Of a stretch of DNA of 64,000 nucleotides, positions 1 to 19,537 are shown piece by piece (the first letter of the stretch is position 1; every line of letters starts with the position of its first letter). Source of the DNA: Leucocoprinus leucothites. Taxonomy: Eukaryota > Basidiomycota > Agaricomycetes > Agaricales > Agaricaceae. The stretch lies in the NCBI GenBank assembly GCA_013368445.1, contig JAACJO010000020.1, positions 1 through 64,000 of the forward strand, written 5' to 3'. A model generated the notes under the pieces. The model saw only the letters and a list, made by a program, of their open reading frames with translations, did no database searches and was not told where the DNA came from. A program made the translations under genes and the position numbers.

Positions 1-935
1 CTTGAAGCAGCAGTGGATGCGTGTCTTGATTGGTGAAGGCAAAAGCAGCTGGGTTCTTTTTCAAGAACTCGACGAGGAATTCATACTGAGGGAAGGTGCA
101 TTGCACCCATTGGGTGCGGATAGGGTAAAGGGGGCAATAGCATAAGATGTGATGTTGTGTTTCCAAGTGGTGTCCACAACAACAGGATTTGGGCTCAAGG
201 GGGAAGAATCTTTTGCGATATGCTCCAATAGGGGCATGATTGAGAATAGCACGAGTCATGCGTGTGCATAGTGATGGTGACTCGTTGGCTAGAGGAAGCC
301 AGGTGCCCCTTTGATGCAAGTGGGAATGAGGAACTTGCAATTCTTTTTAGAAAGAAGGAAACCGTTGCCGCAGTACTTCTTCTTCCAGAATGTGGACTCC
401 CAGGATTTCTGGCAGTTGTTGGTGGCTTTGTGTCACAAGAAGTCGAGAGTGGCACCCGTATGAGGAGGGGCATGTATGCGCATGTTAGTGACATCATTGT
501 GAACTTTGAGATGGGGCTTCCAGCACCACTTAGAAGGGACATCCCAGAAGTCGATGGAGCAAGATGGTTTGGCCGCAAGCCAATTGGATAGAAGTCGGCA
601 GACTTGGATGGAGTGTGACTGGCTCAAGTGGATAGAGGGGTTGACTGCCAGCTTGGCTGCTGGGAGACAGTCAGTGATGAGAATGATATGGTTGCATTGG
701 AGGGAGATGGCTTTAGCAATACTGATGCGGATGGAGTAGAGTTCAGCATCTGTGGAAGACGCCTGGCTGCTTGCCTGTTTTGCATGGGACACTTGTCATC
801 CACCGCAATATAAATGTGCCACTGAAACTGCCTGAAGGGAACCTACAAGTGGAATAGAGGCATCAGTAACAACTGAAATACAATTACGATCTGAAGAGGA
901 AGAGGAGAAAACAGAGTCAAGAGATGATACATGTT

Positions 936-3900
936 CTTCCATTGAAAGTCATGACAATTCGGTTATCGATCTCATTTTTTGCGCTAACAATTCCACCTCC
1001 CATATTATTGATGTTAATTCGAGGCTTCCATCGGATCACGCACCATTAATTATGGATCTTCCAATCTGCCCAGATTATATTAACTATAAAAAATGCGTAC
1101 TACCAAAAGATAGCGATGAAGAGATGGCTTTCACTTCCCAAGTCTCTGAGCATCTAGCGGCCCTTGACTGTTCGGACATTCATTCCACCTCTCGTCTGAA
1201 TGATATCTCTGACTCCATTTCTCAAATCTTTAATGAATCTTGGAACATGAACTCTAAAACTGTATGGATCACTAACCAGTCAAAGGAATGGTGGAACCCC
1301 CACTGTTCTGAGACTCTTCTTACCTACAGAAGAACAAAAGATCGAAAAGATTGGCAAGCATTCAGAGTGGCAACCAGAACTGCCAAACGCTCTTTCTTTG
1401 ATACATGCATTCATGAAATCGCATCGACCAACAAACGACCCTGGGACCTCATAGAATGGGTAAAACAATGCAAACTCCCTGCCATTGAGGGTATCCACTA
1501 TCAAGGATGACCTTGCAATGATCTTCCGGACCTATGGAACGCACTCCATTCATCATATAACTCAGCATCTGGCTGACCGGTAAGCCCTAACATTCTGAAT
1601 GAAATAAAATCCCTTCCCCCCCGTTCCTGGGCAAACTTCTCCATCCTTGAACTCACCAAATCCCTCTCTTCATGCGCTAACTCTTCAGCACCCGGGCCTG
1701 ATCACGTCTCCTGGAAACATCTAAAGTCCATTGTTGCCCACAATGAATGCCTCAAAAACATAATACTCATTGCTAACGTGTGCGTACGTCTCTCTTACTG
1801 GCCGAGTCACTTCAAGGACTCGGTCTCTATCATCATTCCCAAGCCGAATAAACCGGCCTATGATACACCGAAAGCGTTTCATCCTATTGTTCTACTAAAC
1901 ACTTTAGGTAAATTAATTGAGAAGATGATTGCTCGCCGCATGCAGTATGAAGCGGTGTCTCTAGATGTTCTCCACCCTAATCAAATGGGCGGAGTTATCC
2001 AACAATCCACTGAGGATGCAGGAGTATTCCTCACTCATATCATTTGGGCCGGATGGGCTAAAGGTATGATTACCAGTGTTTGTGCTTTTGATATCGCCCA
2101 ATTCTTCCCCTCCCTAAACCACGAAATCCTTACTAACATTCTACGACGACAGGGGTTCACCCCAGAACTCATTAATTTTTTCTCACACTACCTCATAGGT
2201 TGATCCACTCAATTCATGTGGAACACTTTCCTATCCGATGCCCATGACACGGATGTTGGCGTAGGGCAAGGCTCCACTTTATCACCCATCCTATCCGCGC
2301 TCTATCTAGCGCCCCTCATGTTCATGTTCGACCAACATGCTCGACTACAGTCTATCCCTTCTTCCCTTTTATCATTTGTCGATGATGGGCTTTGTATATC
2401 TCAAGTGAAGAACTACACTGACACAATTTCTTCTCTCAAACTAGCCTATTCCATCATCAATTCCATATGCACCAATCTTGGACTTGTCGTTGAACATGAC
2501 AAGTCTGAGGTCTTTCATTTCTCCCGACGTCAAAACGACTCTAATCCCCCCCTCGATCTATCCGACGTTGGTGGCCCTTTACTACATCCTAAACGTGTCT
2601 GGCAGTACTTAGGTTTTTACTTCGACCGTCGTCTATCATTTCAAGAACACGTTCGGTATTACTCTACCAAAGCATTATCCACAGTGAAAGCTATGGGTAT
2701 GCTAGGTAACTCCACCCGAGGCCTTCTCCCTCTACAGAAACGCCTGCTCTATAGGTCATGCGTTGTCCCTGTGGCTACGTATGGCTTCCGACTCTGGTAC
2801 TTTGAAGGTGCTCGTAACAAGGCGCTTCTCAAATCCTTATCATCAATGCAGAGGTGAGCAGCTCTTTGGATTACAGGTGCCTTCCGTACTTCTCCTTCAG
2901 GTGGTGCTGAAAGTATTGCGGGACTTATCCCAATCCACCTTCATCTCCGTAAACTAGCTATTCGTTCATCATATCGAGTCTCTACCCTACCCTCCAATCA
3001 TGCGCTATGCTCTCTTTTATTGGATAGTTTCTCTCTTAACTCTCCCCCTCATCCCCAATCACTTCGCTTTCTCACTCTGGCCAAAAAAGCCAAAGTCAAA
3101 GGCCCTCTTATTGATGTAGATAGTTCTCTTTCTCATCTCTCTGACTTCTTTTCTCCATTCACTCCTGAATCAAAACCTGGGTCTCGTCTCATGGACATCT
3201 TTCCTGATTCTATTCACTTTCACCCTTGCAATCGCTCGGATAAACAAGAAATGTATAAACATGTATCGACTCTTGAATCTGTTTTTTCCTCTTCTTCTTC
3301 TAATCATAATTGCATTTCAGTTGTTACTGATGCCTCTGTCCCACTTGTAGGTTCCCTTCAGGCGGTATTGGCGGCACACATATATCACGGTGGATGACAA
3401 GTGTCCCATGCAAAACAGGCTAGTGGTCGAGCATTGTCTACTGATGCTGAACTCTATTCCATTCGCATTGGCATCGCCAAGGCCATCTCCCTCCAGTGCA
3501 ATCACATCATCCTCATTACCGATTGTCTCCCAGCAGCCAAGCTGGCAGTCAATCCTTCTATTCACTCATGTCAATCACATTCCATCCAAGTCTGCAGACT
3601 TCTATCTGATTGGATTGCAGCCAAACCTCCTCGCTCCATCGACTTCTGGGATGTCCCTTCCAAATGGCGATGGAAGCCCCACCTTAAAGTCCACAACGAC
3701 GTCACCACCACACGTATACATGCCCCCCCTCATTTAGGCACCACTCTTGACTTCTTGCGACGCAAAATCACCAACGACTGCCAGAAATCATGGGAGTCCA
3801 CCTTTTGGAAGAAAAAGTATCGCGGCAGCAGCTTCCTTCTTTCCAAAAAGAATCGCAAATTCCTCATTCCCACATACATCAAAGGGGGCACCTGGCTCCC

Positions 3901-4282
3901 CTTAGCCAATGAGTCGCCATCACTATGCACATGCATGACCCGCGCTATCCTCAACCATGCTCCTATCGGAGCTTATCACAAGAGGTTCTTCCCCCTTGAG
4001 CCCAAGTCCTGTCGATGTGGCCATCATCTGGAAACACGACATCATATCCTGTGTTACTGCCCCTATATCCCTTCCACACTCAATGGGTGCAATGCGCTTT
4101 CCCTCAGTATGAATTCCTCGTCGAGTTCTTAAAGAAAAACCTGGCTGCTTTTTGCCTTCACCAATCATGACACGCGTCCACCGCCACCTCAAGCTCCTGT
4201 GCCCGCTGAACCTAATGAAGGTGAACTATATTCTCTCATCTCATCTCTTCTCTTTTCCTTTGAGACCGATCTCTGTGTATGA
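936..4282 (+). pseudogene. LINE-A A-2 ORF2, 5'-truncated and broken
   Basis: It starts mid-endonuclease (DLIFCANNSTS... at about 968, then SDHAPLIMDLP). The reverse transcriptase spans about 1440-2860, with FVDDGLCIS near 2378-2404. RNase H is at about 3310-3560 (VVTDASVPL, DAELYSIRIGIAKAI, ITDCLPAAKL). A C-terminal Cys/His finger follows (CRCGHHLETRHHILCYC, about 4009-4060). The stop is TGA at 4280-4282. In-frame TGA codons at 1508-1510, 1573-1575 and 2201-2203, plus frameshifts, inactivate it. The longest clean pieces are 1052-1510, 1778-2203, 2216-2857 and 3401-4132. Confidence 0.88.
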
Positions 4283-4487
4283 CACCTTGTTCAATAGTCT
4301 CTTTTGAGTCTTATCTATGTTGCTGGACTAATCATGTATAGTCTCTGTCTTAAGTGGTCGAAGACCGCTTCGTGTACCCCAGCTTGCTGTAGTGTACCAT
4401 CTGTTTGTAATATTTAGTTGAAAGCGGACTGTGATCGAGCACCGCTATACAAATTCATTGATTTAAAAAAAAAAAAAAAAAAAAAAA
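936..4487 (+). mobile_element. LINE-A copy A-2, 5'-truncated, inserted in A-1
   Basis: A plus-strand LINE-A that begins inside the endonuclease domain and ends with the complete 3' UTR and a run of about 24 A (4465-4488). A 14-bp TSD (AGATGATACATGTT) brackets it at 922-935 and 4488-4501, and A-1 RNase H sequence continues across. This is the textbook product of target-primed reverse transcription that stopped early. The 3' UTR (4283-4464) holds no gene. Confidence 0.92.
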
Positions 4488-5690
4488 AGATGATACATGT
4501 TTATACATCTCGTGTTTGTCTGAGTGATTACAAGGATGAAAGTGAATGGAATCAGAAAAGATGTCCATGAGACAAGATCCAGGCTTAGGTTCGAGAGTGA
4601 AAGGGGAGAAAGAATCAGAAAGATGAGAAAGCGAGCTATCTACATCAATAAGAGGGCCTTTGATTTTAGCTTTTTTGGCTGGAGTGAGAAGACGAAGCAA
4701 TTGGGGGTGAGGGGAAGAATTAAGAGAGAAACAATCAGATAAAAGGGAACATAACACATGATTGGAGGGTAAAGTAGAAGCTCAGTATGATGAATGAATA
4801 GCTAATTTATGAAGATGGAGGTGGATTGGAATAAGTCCAGCAATACTTTCGGCACCACCAGAAGGAGAAGTATGAAAAGCACCTGTGATCCAAAGAGCCA
4901 CACGTTTCTGCATGGATGATAAGGACTTGAGAAGTGATTTGTTATGAGCACCTTCAAAGTACCATAGTCGGAACCCATACATGGCCACTGGGACGATGCA
5001 TGACCTATAGAGAAGTTGCTTCTGGAGAGGGAGGAGGCCTTGGGTGGAATTACCTAGCATTCCCATAGCTTTCACAGTGGATAATGCTTTTGTGGAGTAA
5101 TATTGGACATGCTCTTGGAAAGAGAGTTGACAATCAAAGTAGAAGCCGAGATATCACCAAAAGCATTTTGGGTGAAGAAGGGGGCTGCCGACGCCGGAAA
5201 GGTCAAGAGGGGGATTGGAATTGTTATACCATTGGGAAAAGTGGAAAACCTCAGATTTGTCATGTTCAATGACAAGTCCAAGATCAGTGCAGATGGAATT
5301 AATGATGGAATAGGCTGCTTTGAGGGAAGAGATAGTGTCAGTGTAACTCTTCACTTGAGATATACAAAGCCCATCATCGACAAAAGATAGAAGGGAAGAG
5401 GGGATTGATTGTAGATGAGCGTGTTGGTCGAACATGAACATGAGGGGCACCAAGTATAGCACAGATAAGATAGGGGATAAAGCCAAACCTTGCCCTATGC
5501 CAACATCCGCGTCATGGGCATCAGACAAGAAAGTGTTCCACATGAACTGTGTGGAACGACCTATGAGGTAGTGTGAGAAGAATTTAACAATTTCTGGGGT
5601 GAACCCCTGTTGTTGTAAAATGTTAGTAAGAATGTCGTGGTTGAGGGAGGGGAAGAATTGGGCGATGTCAAAGGCGCATACACTAGTGAT

Positions 5691-6621
5691 TTTTATTTAT
5701 TTATTTATTTATTTATTCAGTGGACCCCAAAGGGGTCCAAATTTATAACGCGGTGTGCGGTAGCAGTCCACACCCGACTATCTACTACAGGGAACCAATA
5801 CCACTACTGACTACACAGGAGTAAACAACCGGGAATATATAATAGTCCTGTCCGAGACAATATGTGAAACGATAGCAGAAGGGGGCTAGGCATGTAACAA
5901 AATATAAGGAATGAAACATATACCAATATCACTGCATCTGATGGCAGGCCTTGTGGTTGGTGAGAGCCCATCCGGCAACCGGCAATGGATGGGGGACGAT
6001 GCGTTGACACTAGGGAGCTCCCCCTAGGCCCAGGGCCGACCAGCCACACCAGAATGACTTTGCAGCCAATCCCAATCAAACCGGTGGCGCCAGAACATGC
6101 ACTTGCAGTCAGTAGCAGCATGTTCCTTGCCGCAATTAATGCACTTGATATGAGGACAGGGTTCCCTGGCAGGTGTGGGCTGAATGGGAGGGCTAGCCTT
6201 TAGCAACCCATTACAGCAGGAGGAAGTGGTGCGGTGATTCTTGGACCAATGTGGCCTGCCGCATTGTGAGCACCTGAGCGCGCGGTTGCGACAGGTGGTG
6301 GTAGTGTGGCCCCATCGCCAGCATCGTTGACACTGGGGGGTCCCGGGGTGAGCACGTGCAGCCTTGATCATAGACTGTACACCATCAAAGTTGAGGTATT
6401 TGCCGACCAGGCACTTGGCATTAGCACCTGACTGAGAATCCCAAAGATCGACCCAAACAGTGGTGGTGTCGGCTTTGGCGGAGTTGCGCATGATGCGCAC
6501 GGAGGATACATTAGCAAATGTCTCCTTGAAGGGAGACAGATGCATACAGTTGGTGACGTGTTGCGGAGTGGTGCAGATGCCACTTGTGTAGTAAGGGACA
6601 TCCAGGATCTTGAGGTAAGAT
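5691..6621 (-). mobile_element. Half-LINE family C copy C-1, 5'-truncated, inserted in A-1
   Basis: Minus-strand 3' portion of a family C element: the last third of ORF1, the complete 3' UTR and a tail made of about seven TTTA units (plus strand, 5691-5719) instead of plain poly-T. A 15-bp TSD with one mismatch (GCATACACTAGTGAT at 5676-5690, GCATATACTAGTGAT at 6622-6636) brackets it. A hairpin-forming GGACCCC...GGGGTCC pair sits beside the tail at 5722-5738. The 3' UTR is at about 5740-6023. Confidence 0.9.
6024..6621 (-). pseudogene. Family C gag-like ORF1, C-terminal third (C-1)
   Basis: This fragment of 173 or more codons has no internal stop. It carries LYSILKDVPYY-type sequence, the conserved VDLWDSQSGANAK motif and three knuckles (CQRCWRWGHTTTTC, CSQCGRPHWSKNH, CINCGKEHAATDCKC). 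It ends ...GRPWA with TAG at 6026-6024. The knuckles are intact here, which makes it the cleanest C-terminal half of family C in the minus orientation. It is a truncated insertion, not a gene. Confidence 0.85.
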
Positions 6622-9526
6622 GCATATACTAGTGATCATACCTTTAGCCCATCTGGCCCAAATAATGTGGGTGAGGAATACTCCTGCATCTTCAGTAGAG
6701 CATTGGATCACTCCACCCATTTGGTTAGGGTGAAGGACATCTAAAGATACCACTTCATATTGCATTTGTTGTGTGATCATCTTTTCAATAAGTTTGCCTA
6801 GAGTGTTTAGTAGAACAATGGGGCGAAACACTTTAGGAGTATCATAGGCCAGTTTATTCAGCTTGGGAATGATGATAGAGACCGAGTCTTTGAAGTGACT
6901 CGGCCAGTGAGAGAGACAAATACATGTGTTAGCAATGAGTAGTATGTTATTGAGGCAGTCATTATGGGCAATGATAGATTTCAAATGTTTCCAGGAGACA
7001 TGATCAGGCCCAGGCGCTGAGGAGTTAGTACAGGATGAGAGAGATTCAGTGAGTTTGAGGGCAGAGAATTTGGCCCAGGAACAGGGAGGAAGGGATTTTA
7101 TTTCTTTCAAAATGTTAGGGCTTACCAGTCGACCAGATGCTGAATTGTAAGACGAATGAAGTGCATTCCACAAATCCGGGAGATCATTGCAGGGATGCCC
7201 CTGATAATGAATACCCTTGATGGCAGGGAGTTTGCATTGTTTAACCCATTCCATGAGATCCCAGGGTCGTTTGTTGGTTGAGGCAATCTTGTGGATGTGT
7301 TCATCAAAGAAAGAATGTTTGGCAGCTCAAGTAGTCACTCTGAATGTCTGCCAGTCTTTTCAATCCTTTGTTCTCCTATAAGTAAGAAGAGTCTTGGAAC
7401 AATGGGAGGACCACCATTCCTTCGACTGGTTAGTGATCCATACAGTTTTAGAGTTCGTAATCCATGATTCAGAAAAGATTCGAGAAATAGAGTCAGAGAT
7501 ATTGTTCAGACAAGAGGTAGAGTGAATGTTTGAACAATCAAGTGCCGCTAGATGCTCAGAGACCTGGGAAACAAAAGTAGTCTCTTCATTGCTATCTTTC
7601 AGTAGTACACATTTTTGATAGTTAATATAATCTGGGCAAATAGGAAGATCAATAATCAAAGGCGCATGATCCAAAGGCAGCCTTGACTCAGCATCAATGA
7701 TATGGGAGATAGAATTATTGGCACAAAAAGTGAGATCGATAACTGAATTGTCATGACTTTCAATGGGAGAGAAATGGATAGGAGAAAATATGGTCAGTAC
7801 CGACATAGTAAGATTGAAACAATCCACTAACTCCATTAGAGTTATCACAGTTTGAGGGGTGTGGGTGACTGAGGGATCCCAATCTGGAGAACAACAATTG
7901 AAGTCACCCCCCATATACACAATATTAGGAATGTCGATGAAGTTAGTTGAAAGGAAATTTATTGCCGAAGATGACAAGTCAGAATATATGTTTAAAAAGT
8001 AAATATAGTTACCCTGGTTAAATAATCCCAAAATTTGTATATCACAATGGTTAACCCACTCCTGTCAAAGGATGGGTCTCATACAAAGTAGCTGTCTGTG
8101 AACATAAGTCAGAGTATGGGGTCAGGGGTCATTAGGCTTAGTAGGGCAGACCATACACAGCCACTTAGGGTAAATAGGAGCACCTATGACATCATCCCCT
8201 TCAGGGTTAGTTGTAGAGGGTGCTTTTTGGATATGATTCCATGGAGGTTCCTGTAGAAAAAAGATGTCGAAGTCCAGCTTCTTGGACTCAAGAATGGTGT
8301 TAACCAGGGCATAAGATCATCCCACATTTTGCAAATAGATACAAACAGAAGAAATAGGATTGTTCTTACCAGACATATTTAAACTGCAACTCTGCCACCA
8401 GAGTGATTGGAATTAGCGTGGACAGCACATGCAGTGTGTGATTCGGCAGCTTTGTTAGAATGCCAGGTCCAGTCGAACCTGTTTTTCCAGAAAGGACACT
8501 TATTGTCATTAGCATGATGATTGCCTCTGCAATTGAGGCATTTGAAGTTCTCGAGATGAGGACATGGGATGCCATTGGGAGTGGCATTGCGAGGGAGGTT
8601 TGATTTAGGATTGGCCTTGCAGCACCAGACCATGGATCAATGGTTCTCAACATGATGAGGGCCACCACAGATTTGACAGTGTGCACCAAGGGCACGACAT
8701 GCATGAGTGGGGTGACCCCAGCGCCAACAGTTCCTACACTGAGCTACACCCAGGTGCATACTGGTTGCATGGATAGTGCCGATATGATGGCTGAAGTTAA
8801 TAGTTCAGTTGACCAACGTCTTGGCCTTGGTACTATTTTGGGAGTCCCAGATGTCAAACCACACAACAGCCGTGTCCGATTTAGGGGAAGCTTTCATGAC
8901 ATGAGGACGAGCGGTAAGGATAATATTTTCGAAAAGTGGTGATTGGCTGAGGGCCTACTCAACGAAAGCGGGGGAAAGAGGGTTTGAAGAATTGGCTACC
9001 CAATAAGGGACACCAACAATTTTTAGGAAGGATTTTGATTGTGGGAGGCAGGGCTCAATAGGGATAGCATCTCCTAATTGCCAGGCTTTCTTCAGCCAAG
9101 ACTTAATAGTATCGAGGTCGGTAAGGGTAGTGACACCCGAGGTGGCAATGGAAATGCCATTATATGATTCGTGGACCGATTCAACATGAAGTTTGGATTG
9201 GGCAGCAATAAGACTGCAGTTACAGAATTCAGCTGCCTTATTAAAATCCTTGATTTGGTCAGCAATGATGTTTCCCTTGAAAGGGATAAGAACTTGGCGA
9301 CAAGTTGGCCCATGCATTGTTATTTTGGGTTTAGTGCATTGGGCACCTGTGGTTGAAGGTTCAGGTGCCTGAGGTTGGGCACTCCCAAAACCTGCCTTGT
9401 ACATGGCAAGGACTTTGTCATACGATAGCTCAGGGAAGGCAAGTATCATTTCTCACATCTTGACCCCATTGATGTTGGGGGAGTTAGAAGAGGAAGCCGC
9501 AGGCTGGGCACCCCATTGGGCGGCAT

Positions 9527-10127
9527 TGTCAAGAACTAGGTTACTAAGGACGGGAAACGAAGCCGATGTTCAAGACCGGGTGTCTAAGACAGGGGAACAG
9601 AGATGACTGATCCGGTCGATGAACACGGGAGCGGGTCTTGGCCTCAACTTATGTGTTGTGCCACTACTGACGCTGACCCGGATTTCGGAAACGGATAGAG
9701 GCGGGAGGGCGAAGAGAGAGCAGAGATCAGACAGAGTAGTAACACGTGACTTAGTCGATTATCAGACTGAGGAATATGGTACAAGTTCGACTACTTATAT
9801 ACGAGGCGGAGGATAGGGTCGGATAGCAAGAAACAAAGACATAACAGAAAAAGGATAAGAGGATAATAAGCGTCCGACATTTCGGAAAGGCTAGAAGAAT
9901 AATAATATCCGACATCGGAAGAAGACTAGAAATGACAAGAGGAATGAAATATGACATGACGTGAGAAAGTCCGAACACAACGCGCCAGAAGCCAAAGGGT
10001 AAAGAAGAAGAGTGGAGCGAATGGAGTGGAAGCGAGCCGAAGCGATAGGACGGAAGAGCGGGATGCGTAAAAGATTCTAAGTTGAGAAATTATCAGCCGG
10101 GCCGGTAGCGAGGATCGGGTCGTGACA
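9527..10127 (-). repeat. 3' LTR of the gypsy element
   Basis: 601 bp, same termini as the other LTR. The only difference I can find is GGAGGATAGG here against GGATAGG in the right copy (3 bp). It sits directly after the polypurine tract. The stretch holds no protein gene; the small frames in it are the same in both LTRs and are non-coding. Confidence 0.94.
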
Positions 10128-10128
10128 G

Positions 10129-10140
10129 TATTCCCCCCTT
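10129..10140 (-). promoter_or_regulatory. 3' polypurine tract
   Basis: The sense strand reads AAGGGGGGAATA, followed by C and then the 3' LTR (TGTCACG...). The polypurine run directly before the 3' LTR is the expected primer for plus-strand DNA synthesis. Confidence 0.82.
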
Positions 10141-10196
10141 AGGGCTGAGCCCTCGAAGCCCCGTGATCTGATCGTGGGAATTAATTTCAAACTCCG

Positions 10197-10202
10197 TATA
10201 AA
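10197..10202 (+). promoter_or_regulatory. TATA box of the antisense cargo gene
   Basis: TATAAA on the plus strand, 54 bp before the start codon at 10256. It is followed by a pyrimidine-rich stretch (CTTTTTCTTTCTTAACCTCC) and the start context CTACCATGG. TATA, CT-rich tract and good start context are typical of fungal promoters. It is outside the LTR (which ends at 10127), so the gene seems to have its own promoter. Confidence 0.6.
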
Positions 10203-10255
10203 TTCCGTTCTGCAAAAAATTTAAGCTTTTTCTTTCTTAACCTCCTTACTCTACC

Positions 10256-11516
10256 ATGGCGTCTAACTCGCAGACACAACGATCCGAACCGGCGTCCGAC
10301 ATCGATTTTGAGGAGGCTCTCGCCATGCTGGACGCAGAGGACGCACGCGAGCGAGCCGAGGAAGAGGAGAGGAGGAAGCGGGAAGCCGAAGAAGTGGCGA
10401 GGAAACGGAGGGTCGAGGAAGAAAGAGAGAAGAAGAGGGAGAAGTTGCGAAAGATGAAAGAGGTGAAAGAAGCAGAGAAGAAGAGAGCCGAGGAGGAGGA
10501 GCGGAAGCGGAAGGAGGAGGAGGACGAAAGGCTGCGGAAGGAGTTGGAGGCGGCGGCGGCTTTGGAAGCGAGAGAGAGAGAGAGAGAGAGAGAGAAGGGA
10601 AAGGGAAAAGGAAAGGAGAAGACAGGAGAGTCCGTTCCCGTCAAGCGGAAAGCGGACGCAGAGGCCGGGCCTGCGACGAAGAAGACGAAAAGGAATGCGC
10701 CCACGATGGGCACGAGAGAACCCCCGCCTCCAAGGGCGGCCGCCGCAAATGTCGGAAAAGGGATCGACCGAGGGCCTACCCCTGGTCCTTCCCGAGTGTC
10801 CACCAGTGACGGCGGGTCGTATGCCCCTGATCGTGACTCGGACGTCGAGATCGAGGATACCCCCAAGAAGAAACGGGGGAACTACGACGAGAAGGGTAGG
10901 AAGGTGAAGATGGGCGGCAAGAACGAGTGCGGGCGGTGTCGGCGGTTGGGCAAGGACTGCAAGATGCAGTCAGGCGAGTAAGTTTATTCTTCCGTTTTCC
11001 GATATCGGATCGCGGCTGATCTTCCATAGCAACAAGTTCATGTGTGAGGCGTGCAATAGCTCAAAGCAGCGTTGCACGTTCCCCTCTGAGGCAGACAAGG
11101 CGCCTCACGAACAGACATACGACTTGATCGTCGAGACCCGCGCCACGCGAACGGTGATGATGGAGTTGGTGGCGGAGGTGAAGGAGTTGCGGGCCGAGAT
11201 TGGGAGTCGGCAGGATAGGGCGTTGAGATCGGCGCGGCGGGGTAACGCGCAGAGGCACGAACTCGTGGAGGAGTTCAAGGCCTTCTTTGAGCGCTGTATG
11301 TTCGATGGGCACTTGATGAGCGACGCGAAGTTTGAGGAGGAGAAGAAGAAGGAAAAGGAGGAGTGGCTGAAGGCCCAAGCCGCATCGAAGAAATCGGGTG
11401 AAGGCACAACGTCGGGAGCCGCGGAATCTGGGTCGGGTGGATCGAAAGCGGATGAAGGGCCTGAAGAGGATGAGGGAGATGAGGAGGAAGATGAAGGTGA
11501 GAGTGGAAAGGAGTAG
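10256..11516 (+). CDS. Antisense cargo gene: coiled-coil protein with a Zn2Cys6-type cluster, spliced
   Basis: Exons at 10256-10977 and 11030-11516 give 402 residues once the 52-bp intron is removed. Residues 20-135 are a Glu/Arg/Lys-rich coiled coil. Basic patches (KRKADAE, KKTKRN, about 124-146) look like nuclear localisation signals. Cysteines 225, 228, 235, 246, 249 and 256 give C-x2-C-x6-C-x10-C-x2-C-x6-C, the spacing of fungal binuclear zinc clusters. The intron splits the cluster between the third and fourth cysteines. A heptad-like stretch (VMMELVAEVKELRAEI) and an acidic tail follow. It is convergent with pol, 316 bp apart, and inside the element. The order resembles a DNA-binding regulator: inferred, not known. 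Confidence 0.88.
10978..11029 (+). other. Intron of the antisense cargo gene
   Basis: Donor GTAAGT at 10978, branch-like CTGAT at 11016-11020, acceptor CATAG ending at 11029; 52 bp, a usual length for basidiomycetes. Without splicing, TAA follows codon 241 at once. With splicing the downstream 161 codons are joined in frame and the six-cysteine cluster is completed, which argues strongly that the intron is real. On the pol-sense RNA these splice signals are not functional, so the intron can persist through reverse transcription. Confidence 0.88.
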
Positions 11517-11832: not shown

Positions 11833-14800
11833 CTAGGATAACGGAAGTGGACCAGGCTTGTGAGGATAAGTAGCATGGAAATCAGCGACGAGTTCAGCCG
11901 CATGCGCGAGCTCGGTTGCGGGTAGCCAGGACGATTCTTCTTCAGTATCTTCATAACCCGACCAAAAGACCTTGTACAGGAGTTTACAAGCACGACGACG
12001 GTCGATTTTAGAGTCAACGATGCGGTCGATTTCGTATTCCGGTTCACCATCGATGACGACGGGTGCGGGAGCCGGTTCCGTACGATCGGAAAATGGGTTG
12101 GGTGTGGACGGTTCGAGCATGGACACATGGAAGACTGGGTGAACAGCACGCATGGAATTGGGGAGTCGAAGGGTAAATGAGTGAGAACCAGGCTGAGCAA
12201 TGATTTCGTATGGACCGAGGTAACGTTCGGAAAGCTTCTTGGAGGGGCGAGTGGTGCGGAAGAACTGAGCTTTCACGAAGACTTTCTGGCCGACCTGGAA
12301 GTCAGGAGCTGGTAACCGTCTTGCATCCGCGGATCGTTGATACCGTTTCTGCGCCTCGGATATTTCAGCTTTGAGTGTGGTGTGTAGGTCGTCGAGATCG
12401 ACTGCGAAGTCGCGGGCACGGGCCGACGCGATATCGCGCTCCGGATAGACTGTGAGGTTGGGGTGGTAACCCTTGTTGGCGAAGAAGGGAGAGATTCCGG
12501 TGGTAGCACTGGGGGCGTTGTTGTAAGCGAATTCTGCGAGTGGAAGGAGGTCGGACCAGTTGTCTTGCTGGTAATTGCAGTAAACGCGAAGATATTGCTC
12601 TAATGTCTGGTTGGTACGTTCCGTCTGTCCGTCGCCTTCAGGGTGATAACCCGAAGTGAAATGTAGGCGCATGTCCAGAGCCTTGCCCAGGGATCGGAAG
12701 AAGTGGGATACGAACTCTGAACCGCGATCAGATGTGACGTGAGAGGGAACACCGTGCTTAGAGAATACATGAATGACGAAGAGCCGAGCCAGTTCTGCGG
12801 AAGTAATGGTGTCATGGGTGGGAATGAAGATAGCCTGTTTGGAGAGTCGGTCGACGACTACGAGGATAGAGTCGAAGCCAGAAGAGGTCGGCAGTTTTTC
12901 AATGAAGTCCATAGAGATCGAGTTCCAAGGGCGTTCGGGAATAGGAAGTTGCTTGAGATTTCCATAGGGCTTATGACGCTGAGGTTTGGATCGCATACAA
13001 GTGACGCATGATTTGCAGAAATCCTTGACCTCGGATCGGATATTCGGCCAAGTGTACTCGCGTCGGATGAGCTCCAGAGTCTTGTTCTGTCCGAAATGGC
13101 CAGAGAGGATGTGATCGTGTTTATATTGAAGGACTCGGAGTCGAAGATTGTTGACATCGGGTACATAGATTCTGCCATCGAGCCTTAGGAAGCCAGTGGA
13201 GTCAACCGACCAGCGACCTTCGGGTAAGGAAATGTGGGTGGATGCGATCGGATCCTGCGGAAGCGAGGTGAGGATGTCGGAGTGGAGGTTTTCAAGATCT
13301 AATATGGTGGCTGCGCGAAGGGAAGGAGTGGAAAAATATGTAGCTCGAACGGAAGCTGAGAGTTGTTCATGGGTGAAGACAGGCCGGAAATTGTGTGGAT
13401 TGACTGAAGCGTAGCCATTATTCCCCCCTTTAGGGTAGACGTCCCATCGTCTAGTGAGAGCGTCGGGTTTTGTTCCGAGTCGGCCGGGTCGGAAACGGAT
13501 AATGAGGTTGAACTGGGAGAGGAACTCGGACCAGCGAGCCTGTCGACGGGTGAGGATCTTGGTGGTGCAGAAGTATTCAAGATTTTTGTGATCGGTAACC
13601 ACGTCGATAGGGAGAGAGGCCCCTTCGAGGTAATGCCGCCAGATGCGGAAAGCCTCGAAGATAGCTAGGAGCTCCTTGTCATGAGTATCATAGTTGGACT
13701 CGGCCGTGTTGAAGGTGCGGGAATGGAAGGCAATAGGATGAACTTCGTTGTCATCCGTCACGATGGACAGGATGGCGGCTAGGGCATAATCGGAGGCATC
13801 GGTCTCGATGATGATTTGGGAGTCGGGGATCCAATGAGTGAGGATGGGAGCTGTGGTAAACGCTTCCTTGAGAGAGTCGAAAGCTTCACGACATTTGTTG
13901 TCAAAGTTCCACTTAGCCGATTTACGGGTCAGGCGCGTAAGCGGGACGACGATGTCCGAATAGTTGTAGATGAAGCGTCGATAGAAGTTTGCGAAACCTA
14001 GGAAGGACTGTATGTCCTTGACCTTCTTAGGTTCGGGCCACTCTTGGATAACCTTGATTTTGTCTTCCGACATTTTGAGGCCGGCTGGGGAGAGGATGTA
14101 TCCGAGGTATTCGACAGAATCGGAATGGAATTCGCATTTATCCGCTTTAGCATATAGGCCATGCTTGCGGAGCCGCTTGAGGACGTCTCGTACATGTTTA
14201 CTGTGCGAGTCGAGATCGTCGGAGTAGATGAGGATATCGTCAAGATAGACCGTCACGCAGACATCAAGGAGATCAGAGAAGATGTCGTTCATAAACCGTT
14301 GGAAGGCTGCGGGTGCATTGGTCAGACCGAACGGCATGACAAGCCACTCAAAGGAGCCGTAGCGGGTCCTGAAGGCTGTCTTCCATTCGTCGCCTTCAGC
14401 GATGCGGACGAGGTGGTAGGCATGGCGGAGGTCAATCTTGCTGTAAATGCGGGCTTTGCGGGGAGAGTCGAGAAGGTCGGAAATGAGCGGAAGTGGATAA
14501 CGATCCTTTTTGGTAAGCCGATTGAGCCCACGGAAGTCGACACAAAGTCGAAGTGAACCGTCTTTCTTCCGAACGAAGAGAACGGGTGCGCCGTGAGGCG
14601 AAGAAGTGGGACGGATAAATCCAATGTTGACGTGCTCGTCGATGAACTCGCGGAGAGCCTCAAGCTCGGATGGAGAAAGGGAGTAAATGGTGCCAACGGG
14701 AGGTTGAGCATCTTCTTCAAGGTTGATCTTGAGGTCATAGGGGCGATGCGGGGCGAGAGTATCAGCACGAGCCTTGCTGAAGACGTCGGCAAATTCGTGA

Positions 14801-15606
14801 TATTCACTGGGCACATTAGAGAGATCTGCTGACTCGTCTGAGACACGAGCCGAGCCAGCGGAAGCGGATGTCGAGTTCAAATTGAGATGGAAGTTTACTG
14901 AGCCAGGAAGACGTGAAGCGCGAATAAAAGCAGGAGCGTTGATGAGCGAAATGTGAGGACGCGCAGGAACAGAATCAGAAGTGGACGAAGGGGTCCCAGA
15001 TGGTGATGAATCCAGAGGAAGGGCGTCAGCCGTCGGGCTAGAATCGGATGACGATGCAGAAACCGCCGTAGAAGCGGATGCGACGCGAACAGAAGGGGCA
15101 GGAGTATCCGGCAAATGTGATCGGAATGTAATACTGCTCGAAGCCCAGTCAATCAACGGATTGTAGCGGGTGAGCCAGTTGTGTCCAAGAACCACAGAGC
15201 AAGAAGAATCGAGCCGGGTGACATACAAGTCAAGGGTCATAGATTCACCACTAGGAAAAGTAACAGGCAAGTTCACTAACTCAGTAATATAACTATTCGA
15301 CGATCCGTCAAATAGGCGAAGCTCGATCGGAGGGATAGGAGAGGTCGGAAGGGAATGAGTGCGGGTGAATTCAGAATCAATAAAGCAATGGGTAGAGCCG
15401 GAGTCGACGAGAGCACTGAAGAGGAGCCGTTGGATATTATCGGATGAGCAAATTGAAGAAGAAGAAAGTGAAACAGAAAGGGAATTGGGATCGGAAAGAG
15501 CGGACGCATTGAGGCGGAGGAGACTCTCTGGTGCACAGATGAGCTCAACGCGACCCTCAGTCTGTGCGGAGTCCTGAGGGCCGCTCCCTATTTTTCCGAA
15601 CTCTTT
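11833..15606 (-). CDS. pol: Pol polyprotein of the gypsy element (PR-RT-RH-IN-chromodomain)
   Basis: About 1257 residues from the frameshift window (residue 1 at 15606) to the stop at 11833. Protease: LVDSGSTHCFID, with the DSG at about 68-70. Reverse transcriptase about 330-520: RLCVDFRGLN, MPFGLTNAPAAF, active site VYLDDILIYSDD. RNase H about 590-690: ETDASDYALAAIL, FHSRTF, VVTDHKNLEYF. Integrase: zinc domain with HDHILSGH...CKSCVTC, then catalytic D, D and E in SMDFIEKLP, VTSDRGSEF and YHPEGDGQTERTNQ. A GPY-type module follows (ERYLGPYEIIAQPGSH). The C-terminal chromodomain (EYEIDRIVDSKI, LYKVFWSGYEDTEEESSWLP) probably guides integration to particular chromatin. No lesion is seen. Confidence 0.96.
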   Translation of the reverse strand, partial: KEFGKIGSGPQDSAQTEGRVELICAPESLLRLNASALSDPNSLSVSLSSSSICSSDNIQRLLFSALVDSGSTHCFIDSEFTRTHSLPTSPIPPIELRLFDGSSNSYITELVNLPVTFPSGESMTLDLYVTRLDSSCSVVLGHNWLTRYNPLIDWASSSITFRSHLPDTPAPSVRVASASTAVSASSSDSSPTADALPLDSSPSGTPSSTSDSVPARPHISLINAPAFIRASRLPGSVNFHLNLNSTSASAGSARVSDESADLSNVPSEYHEFADVFSKARADTLAPHRPYDLKINLEEDAQPPVGTIYSLSPSELEALREFIDEHVNIGFIRPTSSPHGAPVLFVRKKDGSLRLCVDFRGLNRLTKKDRYPLPLISDLLDSPRKARIYSKIDLRHAYHLVRIAEGDEWKTAFRTRYGSFEWLVMPFGLTNAPAAFQRFMNDIFSDLLDVCVTVYLDDILIYSDDLDSHSKHVRDVLKRLRKHGLYAKADKCEFHSDSVEYLGYILSPAGLKMSEDKIKVIQEWPEPKKVKDIQSFLGFANFYRRFIYNYSDIVVPLTRLTRKSAKWNFDNKCREAFDSLKEAFTTAPILTHWIPDSQIIIETDASDYALAAILSIVTDDNEVHPIAFHSRTFNTAESNYDTHDKELLAIFEAFRIWRHYLEGASLPIDVVTDHKNLEYFCTTKILTRRQARWSEFLSQFNLIIRFRPGRLGTKPDALTRRWDVYPKGGNNGYASVNPHNFRPVFTHEQLSASVRATYFSTPSLRAATILDLENLHSDILTSLPQDPIASTHISLPEGRWSVDSTGFLRLDGRIYVPDVNNLRLRVLQYKHDHILSGHFGQNKTLELIRREYTWPNIRSEVKDFCKSCVTCMRSKPQRHKPYGNLKQLPIPERPWNSISMDFIEKLPTSSGFDSILVVVDRLSKQAIFIPTHDTITSAELARLFVIHVFSKHGVPSHVTSDRGSEFVSHFFRSLGKALDMRLHFTSGYHPEGDGQTERTNQTLEQYLRVYCNYQQDNWSDLLPLAEFAYNNAPSATTGISPFFANKGYHPNLTVYPERDIASARARDFAVDLDDLHTTLKAEISEAQKRYQRSADARRLPAPDFQVGQKVFVKAQFFRTTRPSKKLSERYLGPYEIIAQPGSHSFTLRLPNSMRAVHPVFHVSMLEPSTPNPFSDRTEPAPAPVVIDGEPEYEIDRIVDSKIDRRRACKLLYKVFWSGYEDTEEESSWLPATELAHAAELVADFHATYPHKPGPLPLS
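13419..13430 (-). promoter_or_regulatory. Possible central polypurine tract inside pol
   Basis: On the sense (minus) strand this reads AAGGGGGGAATA, identical to the 12 nt next to the 3' LTR (10140-10129). Here it encodes the PKGGNN of DVYPKGGNNGYA between RNase H and integrase. A second plus-strand start at such a site is known in Ty1 and lentiviruses; for this element it is an inference from the repeat of the motif. Confidence 0.5.
15588..15606 (-). promoter_or_regulatory. Gag-pol frameshift window
   Basis: The pol frame is -1 relative to gag. It is closed by TGA at 15609-15607 and gag is closed by TAG at 15590-15588, so the shift must happen within these 19 nt. The window holds AAAGAGTTC followed by GGAAAAATAG. 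The five-A run in front of the gag stop is the obvious slip site, although it is not a perfect X XXY YYZ heptamer in the gag frame. A -1 frameshift is inferred; a minor splice or stop-bypass route is not excluded. Confidence 0.7.
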
Positions 15607-17183
15607 TCAGAGTCCTTGGCGGGAGCCGCATCGGCCTTGCGGATCTTGGCCCTGTTCTGCTTCCTATGGCATTGGTCGACCTTGTGACCTTTACCACCGC
15701 AGAACAAGCAGAGGTCTTCATCGATACGGCGTTTGCGCTCTTCGGGAGTCAATTTGCCGTCCTTGCCTAGCTTGTCGGAAATATCCGGTTTCGTGGGACG
15801 GGTCGAAGGGCGTTGCTGGTTAGAGGTGGATGGAGCGGGGGTAGTGGATTTGGAGGGGGCCTGAGAGGTATTGCGATTGTTGTTGCTGCCGCTGTTGTTG
15901 TTGTTGCTGTTGTTGTTGCCCCGATCAAAGTTAGATGGTTGTGACGAAGAGCCGCGTTGGGAATTAGGCTGAGGGTTATTCGAGGAGTTGGAGGGTTTGG
16001 ATTGCTTGCGCTCGGCAAGATCCTTTTCCGCGGCACGGGCACGTGCTCTTTCGCGATCGCGTTCCCAATAGCGACCATCAATGAGCATAGCCGTACGGAG
16101 CATCTCCTGGAAGGTGTTGGGTTTACCCTGTTCGCGGACACTGATAGGGTCCTGAATGCGATTAGGGAGACCCTTATAGTAGCGATGGCAGAGGACCTCG
16201 TCACCCCAGCCGAGCTGTGCAGCGTACTTCATAAAGTCAATGTTGTAAGTGGCGATCTTATCGCCCGATTTCATCCGCAGGTTATCAAGAAGTTCAGCCG
16301 CTTCTGACTTCGGGTTGGCAACCCCAAAGTGCGTGCGGAGCTCGCGGGTAAAAGCATCCCAATCCGTGATCCAATCATGGAAGACGCCTTGCTCCTCCTG
16401 AGTGAGAGCAACCTCGAACCAGTCTAGAGCTACGCCGGTGAGGTAAGTCATTGCGAAGTTGACCTTTTGGCTATCTTCCTGGAACTGAGTTGGGTTGGCG
16501 CGGAAGTAGAGACGGCATTGGATGAGGAAGGTGTTGAGCTTGTCCGGGTCTGTTCCGCTGAACGTATCCGGAAGGCGAGCTTTATTAACGGGAGCCGCGT
16601 TAGGTTGGGGACGGTGGTCGAGGTTATCAGCGAGGCGGGATAAAGCATCGGCTAAGCGATCTTGAAAGCGATCACGACGACGAGGACGAGGTGGGGGAGC
16701 AGGAAGGTCGTCGGATGAGGAAGAGGATGAGTCGTCGTCGTCTGGGTCATTATCGTCGGGGTCGTCGGGATTCTCGGGGCTACCGAGGTGATCTTCGATG
16801 TCTTCCCAATCGTCGTTCTCGTCATCCTGGTGGGGAGGATCAACATAGTCGAGACCATCCTCGTCACCCGGTTCTGAAGGACCGGATGGATCCCGATCGG
16901 GTGGCATACCGCCAGGAGGTGCAGGAGTGCTAGGAGGACGAGTGTCACGACGGCGAGGCAACGGACGAGTAGGACGAGGGATTTGAGAGGGTTGGGGAGT
17001 TGAAGGCAAGTTGGGGTTTAGACGGCGTGAACGGCGGATACGACTAGGAATACGATTATTTCCCGAACTGCGAGTGGAGCTTTCAGCCGGGGTAGCAGGG
17101 ACAGAGTTGGAGCGTTTCGGCTCCTGAGTGGTGGAAGTGGTGGCAGCGGGCTGACGCCGTACTGCGGTGCGGGTGTTTGCCAT
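15588..17183 (-). CDS. gag: Gag polyprotein of the gypsy element
   Basis: 531 residues, starting at ATG 17183-17181, only about 50 nt downstream of the priming site. Residues 1-180 are Pro/Arg- and Asp/Glu-rich and look disordered. About 200-375 is a retrotransposon Gag/capsid domain (LPDTFSGTDPDKLNTFL, ALDWFEVAL, YNIDFMKYAAQLGW). About 375-480 is charged, then Asn/Ser/Gln-rich. A CCHC zinc knuckle (CLFCGGKGHKVDQC) lies at 492-505. The protein forms the virus-like particle and binds element RNA. It ends in TAG at 15590-15588, overlapping pol by 19 nt. Fully open, with typical length for chromoviruses. Confidence 0.94.
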   Translation of the reverse strand: MANTRTAVRRQPAATTSTTQEPKRSNSVPATPAESSTRSSGNNRIPSRIRRSRRLNPNLPSTPQPSQIPRPTRPLPRRRDTRPPSTPAPPGGMPPDRDPSGPSEPGDEDGLDYVDPPHQDDENDDWEDIEDHLGSPENPDDPDDNDPDDDDSSSSSSDDLPAPPPRPRRRDRFQDRLADALSRLADNLDHRPQPNAAPVNKARLPDTFSGTDPDKLNTFLIQCRLYFRANPTQFQEDSQKVNFAMTYLTGVALDWFEVALTQEEQGVFHDWITDWDAFTRELRTHFGVANPKSEAAELLDNLRMKSGDKIATYNIDFMKYAAQLGWGDEVLCHRYYKGLPNRIQDPISVREQGKPNTFQEMLRTAMLIDGRYWERDRERARARAAEKDLAERKQSKPSNSSNNPQPNSQRGSSSQPSNFDRGNNNSNNNNSGSNNNRNTSQAPSKSTTPAPSTSNQQRPSTRPTKPDISDKLGKDGKLTPEERKRRIDEDLCLFCGGKGHKVDQCHRKQNRAKIRKADAAPAKDSEKSSEK

Positions 17184-17234
17184 GACGAAGACAAGAGAAG
17201 GGAGCAGAGGGATGATGCGACAGTAGCGAGGCGT

Positions 17235-17245
17235 AGTCTGATAAT
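17235..17245 (-). promoter_or_regulatory. Self-priming primer-binding site
   Basis: Two bases inside the 5' LTR the element's sense strand reads ATTATCAGACT. This is the exact reverse complement of AGTCTGATAAT at the predicted 5' end of the transcript (17489-17479, 33 nt after the TATA box). Tf1/sushi-type elements prime minus-strand DNA synthesis with the first 11 nt of their own mRNA annealed here instead of a tRNA. No TGG-type tRNA complement is seen next to the LTR. The match is direct; the mechanism is inferred from the Tf1 family. Confidence 0.82.
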
Positions 17246-17247
17246 AC

Positions 17248-17845
17248 TGTCAAGAACTAGGTTACTAAGGACGGGAAACGAAGCCGATGTTCAAGACCGG
17301 GTGTCTAAGACAGGGGAACAGAGATGACTGATCCGGTCGATGAACACGGGAGCGGGTCTTGGCCTCAACTTATGTGTTGTGCCACTACTGACGCTGACCC
17401 GGATTTCGGAAACGGATAGAGGCGGGAGGGCGAAGAGAGAGCAGAGATCAGACAGAGTAGTAACACGTGACTTAGTCGATTATCAGACTGAGGAATATGG
17501 TACAAGTTCGACTACTTATATACGAGGCGGATAGGGTCGGATAGCAAGAAACAAAGACATAACAGAAAAAGGATAAGAGGATAATAAGCGTCCGACATTT
17601 CGGAAAGGCTAGAAGAATAATAATATCCGACATCGGAAGAAGACTAGAAATGACAAGAGGAATGAAATATGACATGACGTGAGAAAGTCCGAACACAACG
17701 CGCCAGAAGCCAAAGGGTAAAGAAGAAGAGTGGAGCGAATGGAGTGGAAGCGAGCCGAAGCGATAGGACGGAAGAGCGGGATGCGTAAAAGATTCTAAGT
17801 TGAGAAATTATCAGCCGGGCCGGTAGCGAGGATCGGGTCGTGACA
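17248..17845 (-). repeat. 5' LTR of the gypsy element
   Basis: 598 bp, bounded by TGTCA...TGACA inverted termini. On the minus strand it has a TATA box (TATATAA at 17522-17516), and 33 nt further on the 11-mer AGTCTGATAAT (17489-17479), which I take as the start of the transcript (R region). The U3/R boundary is inferred from that spacing. Confidence 0.94.
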
Positions 17846-19537
17846 GGCATCAGCGAATGACACATTCTTCTTGTTGAAGTGTTCCATAAGGGGTTTGGTG
17901 GATGCCTTACAGTTAGGAGGGGGAATGGGGGGTAGTATATTAGAGGTGCCCTTAGGGTTAGGTTTTGACGGCTGAGCCTGGCCATCAGAAGAAGGGCGCC
18001 CAACTGAGCATTCAAAGTTTTCATTCCCATTCCTTGGGGACATGTGATTGGAAGGTGGAGGGGGGCCCGGGAGATGCGAATAGGACCGGCAGGCTTGGAA
18101 GACATGATGTCATTCTTTGCCTTTTGGGAGTCTGACACAGACGAGATGTCATGTGCCTTACCAGAAGACAAGACATCATTCTGGGGGATAGGAAGGGTGC
18201 CCTCAGTGGGAGGGGTTTGATCAATGTTCATTTGATCATCATTGATATGAGCTGTGGGTTTAGTTTGCCCAATGACAATGCCAGGTGGAAATAGGGGGGT
18301 AGGGATGAGAGACGGAGAAGGTTTACTTGCCTTTTTACCCTTCCCTTTACCCTTAGGAGGGGGGGAAGAGTCTGTCATGGGGATATCAGAAGGAGGGCTG
18401 TAATAGTGCCTCAGTGCTTCAACGATCGTGAGTCCGCTTTCGCTGTTGATGGGTAAGCGGTCCCAGCCTGACTCAAACATAGTGGTGAGTAAGCAGTAGA
18501 TCAGTTCCCCCATTTGGGGAAACCTCGGGTCTTTCTCACTGGGCCGCAATCCAAGAGCGGTATGGTGTCTGAAGAAGTTCATAACATATTTGAGTGCTTC
18601 AATCGCTTTATAGGCAGCTTCACCGACAACAACAATTTCTTCAGTGGCCATGTTTGATGGATCCTTGAGATCTGGAAGATGTGGCTGTGCAGGCCTAGGC
18701 TCCTGTGGCTGTGCAGTGATGTCACCAGTGACATCATGTGTGATGTCAGGTATGACACCATTAGTGTTAGAAGATCCGGCAAGGAAGGTAGCCGGAGTGC
18801 TGGTTGGCACAGCATTCACTGACTCAGCAGATCCATGGATCACATGAGGCATCCTTGAGGTGGGTGGGGGTCCAAACTGTCTATTGACTGGTTCCCTGTC
18901 TTTGAATACCCCATCCTCTATGTCACCCTACGCATCCCTGCGAGAGCTTAGATTCAAAGGGTCAGGAGGTTGAAACTCACCTATAAATCCCTCTCCGAAT
19001 GGGCAGTAGGGGATAGGCGATTTGAAGCCATCATATGCACTAAGTGATGCAGTTCTTGAGATGGCCTTGGGGGTAATGTCCAGTCCTCTACGAGAATCCC
19101 GAGCATGAGATCGCTTGGCATGTGAAGAGGGAGGAGGGGGAGTTCTGAAGGATGAGTGTGATGCTATATGCAATAGTGTAGCTTGAGCAGCAGAGGGTGA
19201 AGAAGGGGGGGAAGTTGACACCGACGAATCAGAATCGCTCTCACCGCTCTCCTCTTCTTGATCAGGGCCAGCCCTCGATGGGGCAGCAGACTTGGCATCG
19301 TCTTGTACAGAATGCCTGGTCGATTTGATGGATAAAGCGGGAGATTTCAAGCAGTTGTGCTTGTTGATTGAGATACGTGGTTTGGTGTCAGCGAGGTTCA
19401 TAGGGTCCAAAGATGGCGGTGGGGAACCCTTAAGGTCCACCCAGTGCGATGGTGTAGTCATTTCAATAGTATTCATAGTCAATGCATATGTAGACACCGT
19501 CAAAGAAATCGATGATGGTGGTTAGAGGGAAAGGAGG

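Follow-up and report, generated by a model that had tools for sequence, protein, structure and literature searches.

A spliced antisense gene in a mushroom chromovirus clade encodes a zinc-cluster-like protein that may regulate its own element

Introduction

HBZ of HTLV-1 is a bZIP protein, and to our knowledge the accessory proteins of LTR retrotransposons outside the retroviruses have seldom been shown to be under selection. Among plants, the gypsy elements Retand, Grande and RIRE2 carry antisense open reading frames (ORFs) between pol and the 3' LTR, and the author of that work proposes DNA binding and a regulatory function for the antisense TRP28 ORFs of Retand-type elements (PMC11963269). 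In group 2 of the sunflower Tekay elements, an extra protein predicted to be nuclear is encoded by 500 of 523 elements (PMC11728184).

Here we describe an antisense gene from the mushroom Leucocoprinus leucothites that can be compared with each of these systems. Like the Retand-type ORF, it lies in antisense orientation between pol and the 3' LTR and is kept across a lineage, with a relative present beside 100 of 111 matches to pol. However, its product carries a six-cysteine cluster rather than TRP28 (PF04195), it has a 52-nt intron whereas the term intron does not occur in the main text on the plant ORFs, and it belongs to a chromovirus clade rather than to the non-chromovirus lineage of Retand, Grande and RIRE2 (PMC11963269). 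With HBZ and other retroviral antisense genes it shares a location at the 3' end of an LTR element and, if our proposal is correct, the function of a nuclear regulator, but a TATA box is found in the leader between the LTR and the ATG, whereas retroviral antisense promoters have been placed in the 3' LTR (PMC10186651). Tekay and Athila elements likewise have an extra nuclear-predicted protein, which most members of an LTR family retain; unlike the mushroom gene, the Tekay ORF is located 5' of gag-pol, and the extra Athila proteins are described as env-like or as having a transposase-type domain, with no cysteine cluster described (PMC11728184). Antisense ORFs between pol and the 3' LTR are already known from plants, and the new part appears to be the fungal zinc-cluster version, since no antisense zinc-cluster gene in a fungal LTR element was found in the open-licence literature that we searched.

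Results

The window that we analysed comprises the first 64,000 nucleotides of a 695,087-base contig (C20) from the 47.0 Mb genome of L. leucothites. It contains a minus-strand element with the features that define a Ty3/gypsy chromovirus, including gag, protease, reverse transcriptase, RNase H, integrase, a chromodomain, LTRs and a 5-bp target-site duplication (TSD). The duplication, GGCAT, occupies positions 9522-9526 and, as a matching copy, 17846-17850. It encloses a 3' LTR (9527-10127) and a 5' LTR (17248-17845) that form a direct repeat with no mismatches and a single 3-nt indel, and this near identity suggests that the element inserted recently. Both coding frames are open. The gag gene (15588-17249, minus strand), identified from its reading frame and a Pfam match to a Ty3-type capsid, has in translation a zinc knuckle of its own, CLFCGGKGHKVDQC, and pol (11833-15606, minus strand) has Pfam matches for all domains from protease to chromodomain. 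The two genes overlap by 19 nt (15588-15606, minus strand), with pol in the -1 frame relative to gag, and the end of gag reads GAA AAA TAG, which makes a -1 frameshift likely.

Between pol and the 3' LTR, opposite in orientation to gag-pol, lies a two-exon gene on the plus strand (10256-11516) with 402 codons and a stop. Exon 1 (10256-10977) encodes a long charged helix (residues 15-115), basic patches and the first half of the cysteine cluster, whereas exon 2 (11030-11516) supplies the second half, another helix (residues 261-330) and an acidic tail. The cluster (residues 225-256, positions 10928-11075) is interrupted by the 52-nt intron (10978-11029), which runs GTAAGT...CCATAG. A 128-nt leader (10128-10255) reaches from the LTR to the ATG and holds the polypurine tract of the element as well as a TATAAA box (10197-10202), leaving 53 nt between the box and the ATG.

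The splice sites were chosen by a script that favours long frames, and they agree with three public gene models (P0001, P0003 and P0004) that equal the spliced products of the window and of the copies L033 and L037, respectively. Specifically, P0001 (NCBI hypothetical protein D9756_010445 of L. leucothites, labelled a Zn(2)-C6 domain protein in UniRef) matches the spliced product of the window letter for letter. In the eight open copies that were checked, each of the remaining five frames contains at least two stops. An earlier note, made from the sequence of the window alone, had described a spliced antisense gene within a TSD-bounded gypsy unit, with a 52-nt GTAAGT...TAG intron joining the exons in frame, a characteristic cysteine spacing and a TATA box of its own. 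The coordinates, the TSD and the identity with P0001 bear out this description, and the comparisons below extend it to other copies.

Relatives of the gene fall into three subfamilies, A (which includes the window), B and C. We scanned 29 A and B copies for the two-exon structure, namely the window plus 28 of 34 retrieved loci; in the other six (L019, L023, L025, L028, L030 and L031), the gene is missing its start or a large portion. In 13 of the 29 (5 of 18 A copies and 8 of 11 B copies), the frame runs uninterrupted to the natural stop, and three of the five open A copies, the window among them, are identical in gene sequence. The intron is 52 nt long with a GTAAGT or GTGAGT donor and sits at the same place and phase in 13 of 13 open copies, although its sequence differs between A and B. 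Reverse transcription of the sense RNA should leave an antisense intron in place, and the conservation of this intron therefore argues for a real antisense mRNA over evolutionary time. The leader is also kept in subfamily B. Within the leader, A and B have CTCCGTATAAATTCCG in common, with its spacing preserved, and C lacks this sequence at that place. A TATA-like site in sense orientation in the 3' LTR, TATATAAG, is the reverse complement of the site at 9795.

To relate the gene to its element, we searched the genome with the last 165 residues of pol and scored 150 of 349 candidates, of which 113 match with at least 58% identity and the remaining 37 with 31-39%. Two of the 113, C19:424084 and C21:565782, were dropped because they adjoin listed fragments, leaving 111, several of which are fragments of one pol. 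Manual listing of gene places from an A/B search (109 matches) and a C search (58 matches), with the exon hits of each copy merged, gave 107. Such a place lies within 4.5 kb on the 3' side of 93 of the 111 pol matches (within 1,327 nt for 88 of these), and it accompanies 37 of the 37 matches with pol identity of at least 80%. Seven of the other 18 directly adjoin an antisense gene (C5:2177018, C24:37944, C27:36383, C35:147021, C35:172959, C4:1054014 and C3:834873). As a result, an antisense relative, intact or in many cases decayed, is found 3' of 100 of the 111 matches to the pol C-terminus, whereas none was found on the 3' side of 11. Viewed from the genes, 91 of the 107 places pair with a listed pol match, and 16 have none within 4.5 kb.

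Gypsy copies without the gene, which the earlier note had named as evidence against its proposal, do exist, but they number at most 11 of the 111 plus one internal deletion. Two copies with an open or stop-free pol depart from the common pattern. At L028 (G000:C4:1213877-1219272), pol is open and the LTR is 100% identical to that of the window, but the antisense gene is reduced to an in-frame remnant of 131 residues that has no cysteines, no cluster and no intron; 33 nt at the junction are common to both matched pieces. This remnant could act as a dominant-negative form. At L034, pol is free of stops and the antisense frame has a stop at codon 22. The intact gene may have been lost at these two loci after the elements inserted, or else the protein may act in trans.

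Subfamily C became apparent from 11 pol copies (71-79% identity) for which the A/B search had returned no gene. Within 2.5 kb past pol, two of them have A/B-type genes and nine have an intronless antisense ORF, 285 residues long where intact, with the array C-x2-C-x6-C-x8-C-x2-C-x6-C; at one of the nine loci (L056) only the second half of the cluster is in frame. Between A and C, pol is 76% identical and gag 38% over 341 columns, and the antisense proteins are alike in little beyond the cluster. An hhalign comparison of the C ORF with the A/B proteins covers 40 columns with probabilities of 25% and 14% (E 0.0008 and 0.0019). We consider the C ORF a probable homolog of the A/B gene on the basis of its place and its cysteine array. 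At five loci beside pols of 32-38% identity, the six-cysteine array is found on neither strand. These loci seem to represent two other families of gypsy elements. Past pol they carry sense ORFs, and the two antisense ORFs present (131 and 154 codons) lack the array. From these comparisons of copies, we conclude that a Ty3/gypsy chromovirus clade of L. leucothites carries the antisense gene as a regular component.

A separate observation concerns L061, L062 and L065, which belong to another gypsy family. Immediately beyond pol, where an env-like gene would sit, each carries a sense ORF of 440-454 codons with a CDICHGMGHIKT stretch.

The protein of well-diverged B genes is under purifying selection, as judged from codon comparisons of five genes. 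Seven well-diverged pairs give dN/dS values of 0.073-0.135. In the pair L035-L032, dS is 0.67 and dN is 0.049, with 117 synonymous and 44 non-synonymous changes (Fisher test 4e-51 on rounded site counts), and 114 of 160 nucleotide differences (71%) fall at third positions. The three close pairs (0.62, 0.77 and 1.96) differ at 13, 19 and 8 sites, which are too few to read. Values near 1, set beforehand as speaking against a functional gene, were not found among the well-diverged B copies (0.07-0.14). Pairs between A and B give 0.08-0.28 with saturated silent sites, and pairs within A give 0.36-0.43, which says little because the changes are mostly CpG decay. For pol, dN/dS is 0.05-0.10 among four stop-free copies, with four copies containing stops left out. 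Differences among three C copies are mostly CpG changes spread across all codon positions, a pattern that does not point to selection on C. The sequence evidence as a whole supports a real gene that is intact, spliced and element-borne, has a TATA box of its own, keeps its place across the element clade and is subject to purifying selection.

The five B copies L032, L033, L034, L035 and L037 show unusual silent diversity in the antisense gene. From the antisense ATG to the pol stop, the exons are 7-18% diverged in most pairs, mostly at silent sites, whereas the leader (0-7%), pol (1-4%) and also the LTR (up to 6%) are far closer. Which copies are nearly identical shifts along this block. We entertained selection for silent change and dropped it, as recombination accounts better for a mosaic that differs from copy to copy.

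Zn(2)Cys(6) proteins have the spacing C-x2-C-x6-C-x5-12-C-x2-C-x6-8-C. Residues 225-256 of the A protein, C-x2-C-x6-C-x10-C-x2-C-x6-C as the earlier note had read them, conform to it, and this spacing is kept in subfamily B. Membership of Pfam's Gal4-type family was not supported, in that matches to Zn_clus (PF00172) reach 9.0 bits for the A protein, 13.2 for P0003 and 13.1 for P0004, all below the 21-bit gathering score, and P0002 has no match to this model. We therefore do not place the protein in Pfam's Zn(2)Cys(6) family, although it may function like a member. In Gal4, Lys18, between cysteines 2 and 3, contacts CGG. Its counterpart is Gly232 in A and also Gly in B. In the second half of the cluster, a Lys (Lys253 in A) occupies the equivalent position, which in A, B and C alike is four residues beyond the second C-x2-C.

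An AlphaFold model built from three sequences (mean pLDDT 63.3, pTM 0.23) predicts, with good confidence, one helix at residues 15-115 and another at 261-330. It also places a short helix at each C-x2-C turn, where pLDDT within the cluster is near 50. The predicted layout is helix, linker, short helices at the C-x2-C turns and long helix, and in this monomer prediction the last helix lies at the place of the Zn(2)Cys(6) dimerisation helix. A Foldseek search of the PDB returned a single match, the Zn(2)Cys(6) regulator PUT3, which is not significant (E 3.5, probability 0.07); a VIA-align 2 comparison of the cluster fold covered three chains only. The protein resembles Gal4/PUT3-type regulators in its cysteine spacing, in the long predicted helix after the cluster and in its CGG-rich putative targets, but differs in its Pfam score, in the displaced lysine, in being element-borne and antisense, and in its extra N-terminal charged helix. 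Neither TRP28 (PF04195) nor a bZIP, the domain that sets HBZ apart from this protein, appears among Pfam matches up to E 10. Database searches, whose reach is relatives with short exact words in common, returned three L. leucothites proteins and one from a JGI contig, and thus lend no support to the idea in the earlier note that proteins of this kind abound in mushroom proteomes.

CGG triplets are known targets of Zn(2)Cys(6) proteins. Counts of CGG/CCG are 28 in the A LTR (17.6 expected) and 27 in the B LTR (15.3 expected), and neither count was equalled in 1000 dinucleotide shuffles (0/1000 each). There is no excess in the C LTR (13 versus 12.3), in the A pol piece (25 versus 21.7) or in the A gag piece (29 versus 30.3). 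Of the seven classes of triplet compared, only CGG is conspicuous in the A and B LTRs, with several counts tried and uncorrected; the control pieces from other families in this comparison are putative LTRs. The triplets best kept between the A and B LTRs are CGG/CCG (14/28) and ACT (9/18). The 320 nt between the gene and pol in the window also contain 10 CGG/CCG where 5.2 are expected, which shows that the LTR is not alone in having an excess. These counts fit the view that the CGG-rich LTR is a putative target of the zinc-cluster-like protein.

A longer candidate LTR signal, TCGGA/TCCGA, was rejected: it occurs 7 times in the A LTR (1.7 expected), but 10 times in the control pol piece (2.6 expected). 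When the LTRs at 9527-10127 of the window, L038:1313-1871 and L048:310-856 were compared, a block around TGGCCTCAACTTATGTGTTGTGCC proved to differ hardly at all from A to B, and C has a stretch resembling it; CGGGAGCGGGTC and GACCCGGA flank it in A and B.

Discussion

We propose that the antisense gene encodes a nuclear coiled-coil, HBZ-like regulator that acts on the CGG-rich LTR of its own element and is a standing accessory gene of the chromovirus clade, a reading to which we assign a probability of roughly 0.5. The structure of the gene fits an HBZ-type antisense spliced regulator. In this scheme, the gene would be transcribed from the antisense strand, spliced and translated, and its intron would outlast retrotransposition because the sense genomic RNA would be unable to splice it. 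The basic patches may carry the protein into the nucleus, the long helices may mediate dimerisation, and the zinc-cluster-like domain may bind CGG-rich sites of the LTR. The protein, either a repressor or an activator, would then tune sense gag-pol transcription much as HBZ works in HTLV-1.

This proposal draws on the fixed place and orientation of the gene, purifying selection, the conserved intron and leader, the architecture of the protein and the CGG excess of the LTR. Against it stand the Zn_clus scores below the cut-off, the C LTR, which has no CGG excess despite the six-cysteine ORF, the excess in the stretch between gene and pol, the remnant at L028, and the codon-22 stop at L034 beside a stop-free pol.

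Three other roles, and the absence of any role, have to be weighed against regulation of the LTR. First, VANC of plant VANDAL transposons is an anti-silencing factor, and the mushroom protein might similarly bind the DNA of its own element and prevent or remove host methylation or heterochromatin. The elements do seem to face methylation or a RIP-like process, because decayed A copies change mainly by C>T/G>A at CpG (25 of 27 changes in L011, 47 of 49 in L013 and 52 of 56 in L014). Moreover, the A and B antisense proteins (45-47% identical) and LTRs (61%) have strongly diverged, whereas pol remains about 93% identical in protein over its last three quarters (residues 309-1257) and 79.5% over its first 308 residues. 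Gag has diverged as well (61% and 75% in two stretches), making the antisense gene, the LTR and gag the fast parts of the element, and rapid change is therefore not special to the antisense gene. No known silencing-suppressor domain is found among the Pfam matches. A regulatory or anti-silencing role would be plausible for this protein, but we regard anti-silencing in particular as rather improbable.

Second, cysteine clusters can bind RNA, and a basic cysteine-rich domain could aid export or packaging of the genomic RNA or assembly of particles, in the manner of Rev-like or CERV-like proteins. The helix and cluster are very basic, with a net charge of +9 over residues 205-262. However, gag already possesses a zinc knuckle, accessory genes of the late cycle are usually encoded in sense orientation, and DNA binding is the better match for a Gal4-like cluster with a long helix behind it. 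Consequently, we consider this role unlikely.

Third, the antisense transcript itself might be active, through transcriptional interference or double-stranded RNA, with the protein incidental. The leader would drive transcription towards pol, and retroviral antisense transcripts have both coding and non-coding roles (PMC10186651). The dN/dS values of the B genes and the 71% of changes at third positions point instead to selection on the protein, which makes this explanation very improbable. Finally, a passenger without a role for the element, whether a captured member of a common host gene class such as the Zn(2)Cys(6) genes or a chance ORF, is disfavoured to a like degree, for although 16 of 107 gene places have no listed pol match within 4.5 kb, the constant place beside pol in three diverged subfamilies and purifying selection speak against it, and the database searches, limited in reach, returned no host relative.

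If the LTR-directed regulator is taken as the working model, a broader and more doubtful extension is that the mushroom chromovirus clade encodes its own antisense, intron-bearing zinc-cluster regulators, each of which binds its own LTR and co-diverges with it, giving separate control circuits within one genome. Since this one genome contains numerous copies of the element, three subfamilies that have diverged and a number of open genes, antisense control of a retrotransposon becomes directly testable in a fungus. The gene is also a caution for annotation: some mushroom genes labelled as Zn(2)-C6 domain proteins, among them P0001 in UniRef, belong to retrotransposons.

A last observation concerns positions 1-9450 of the window, where translations read by eye reveal several LINE-like reverse transcriptase copies in both orientations that are about 83% alike (inverted repeats I1, I2 and I3).
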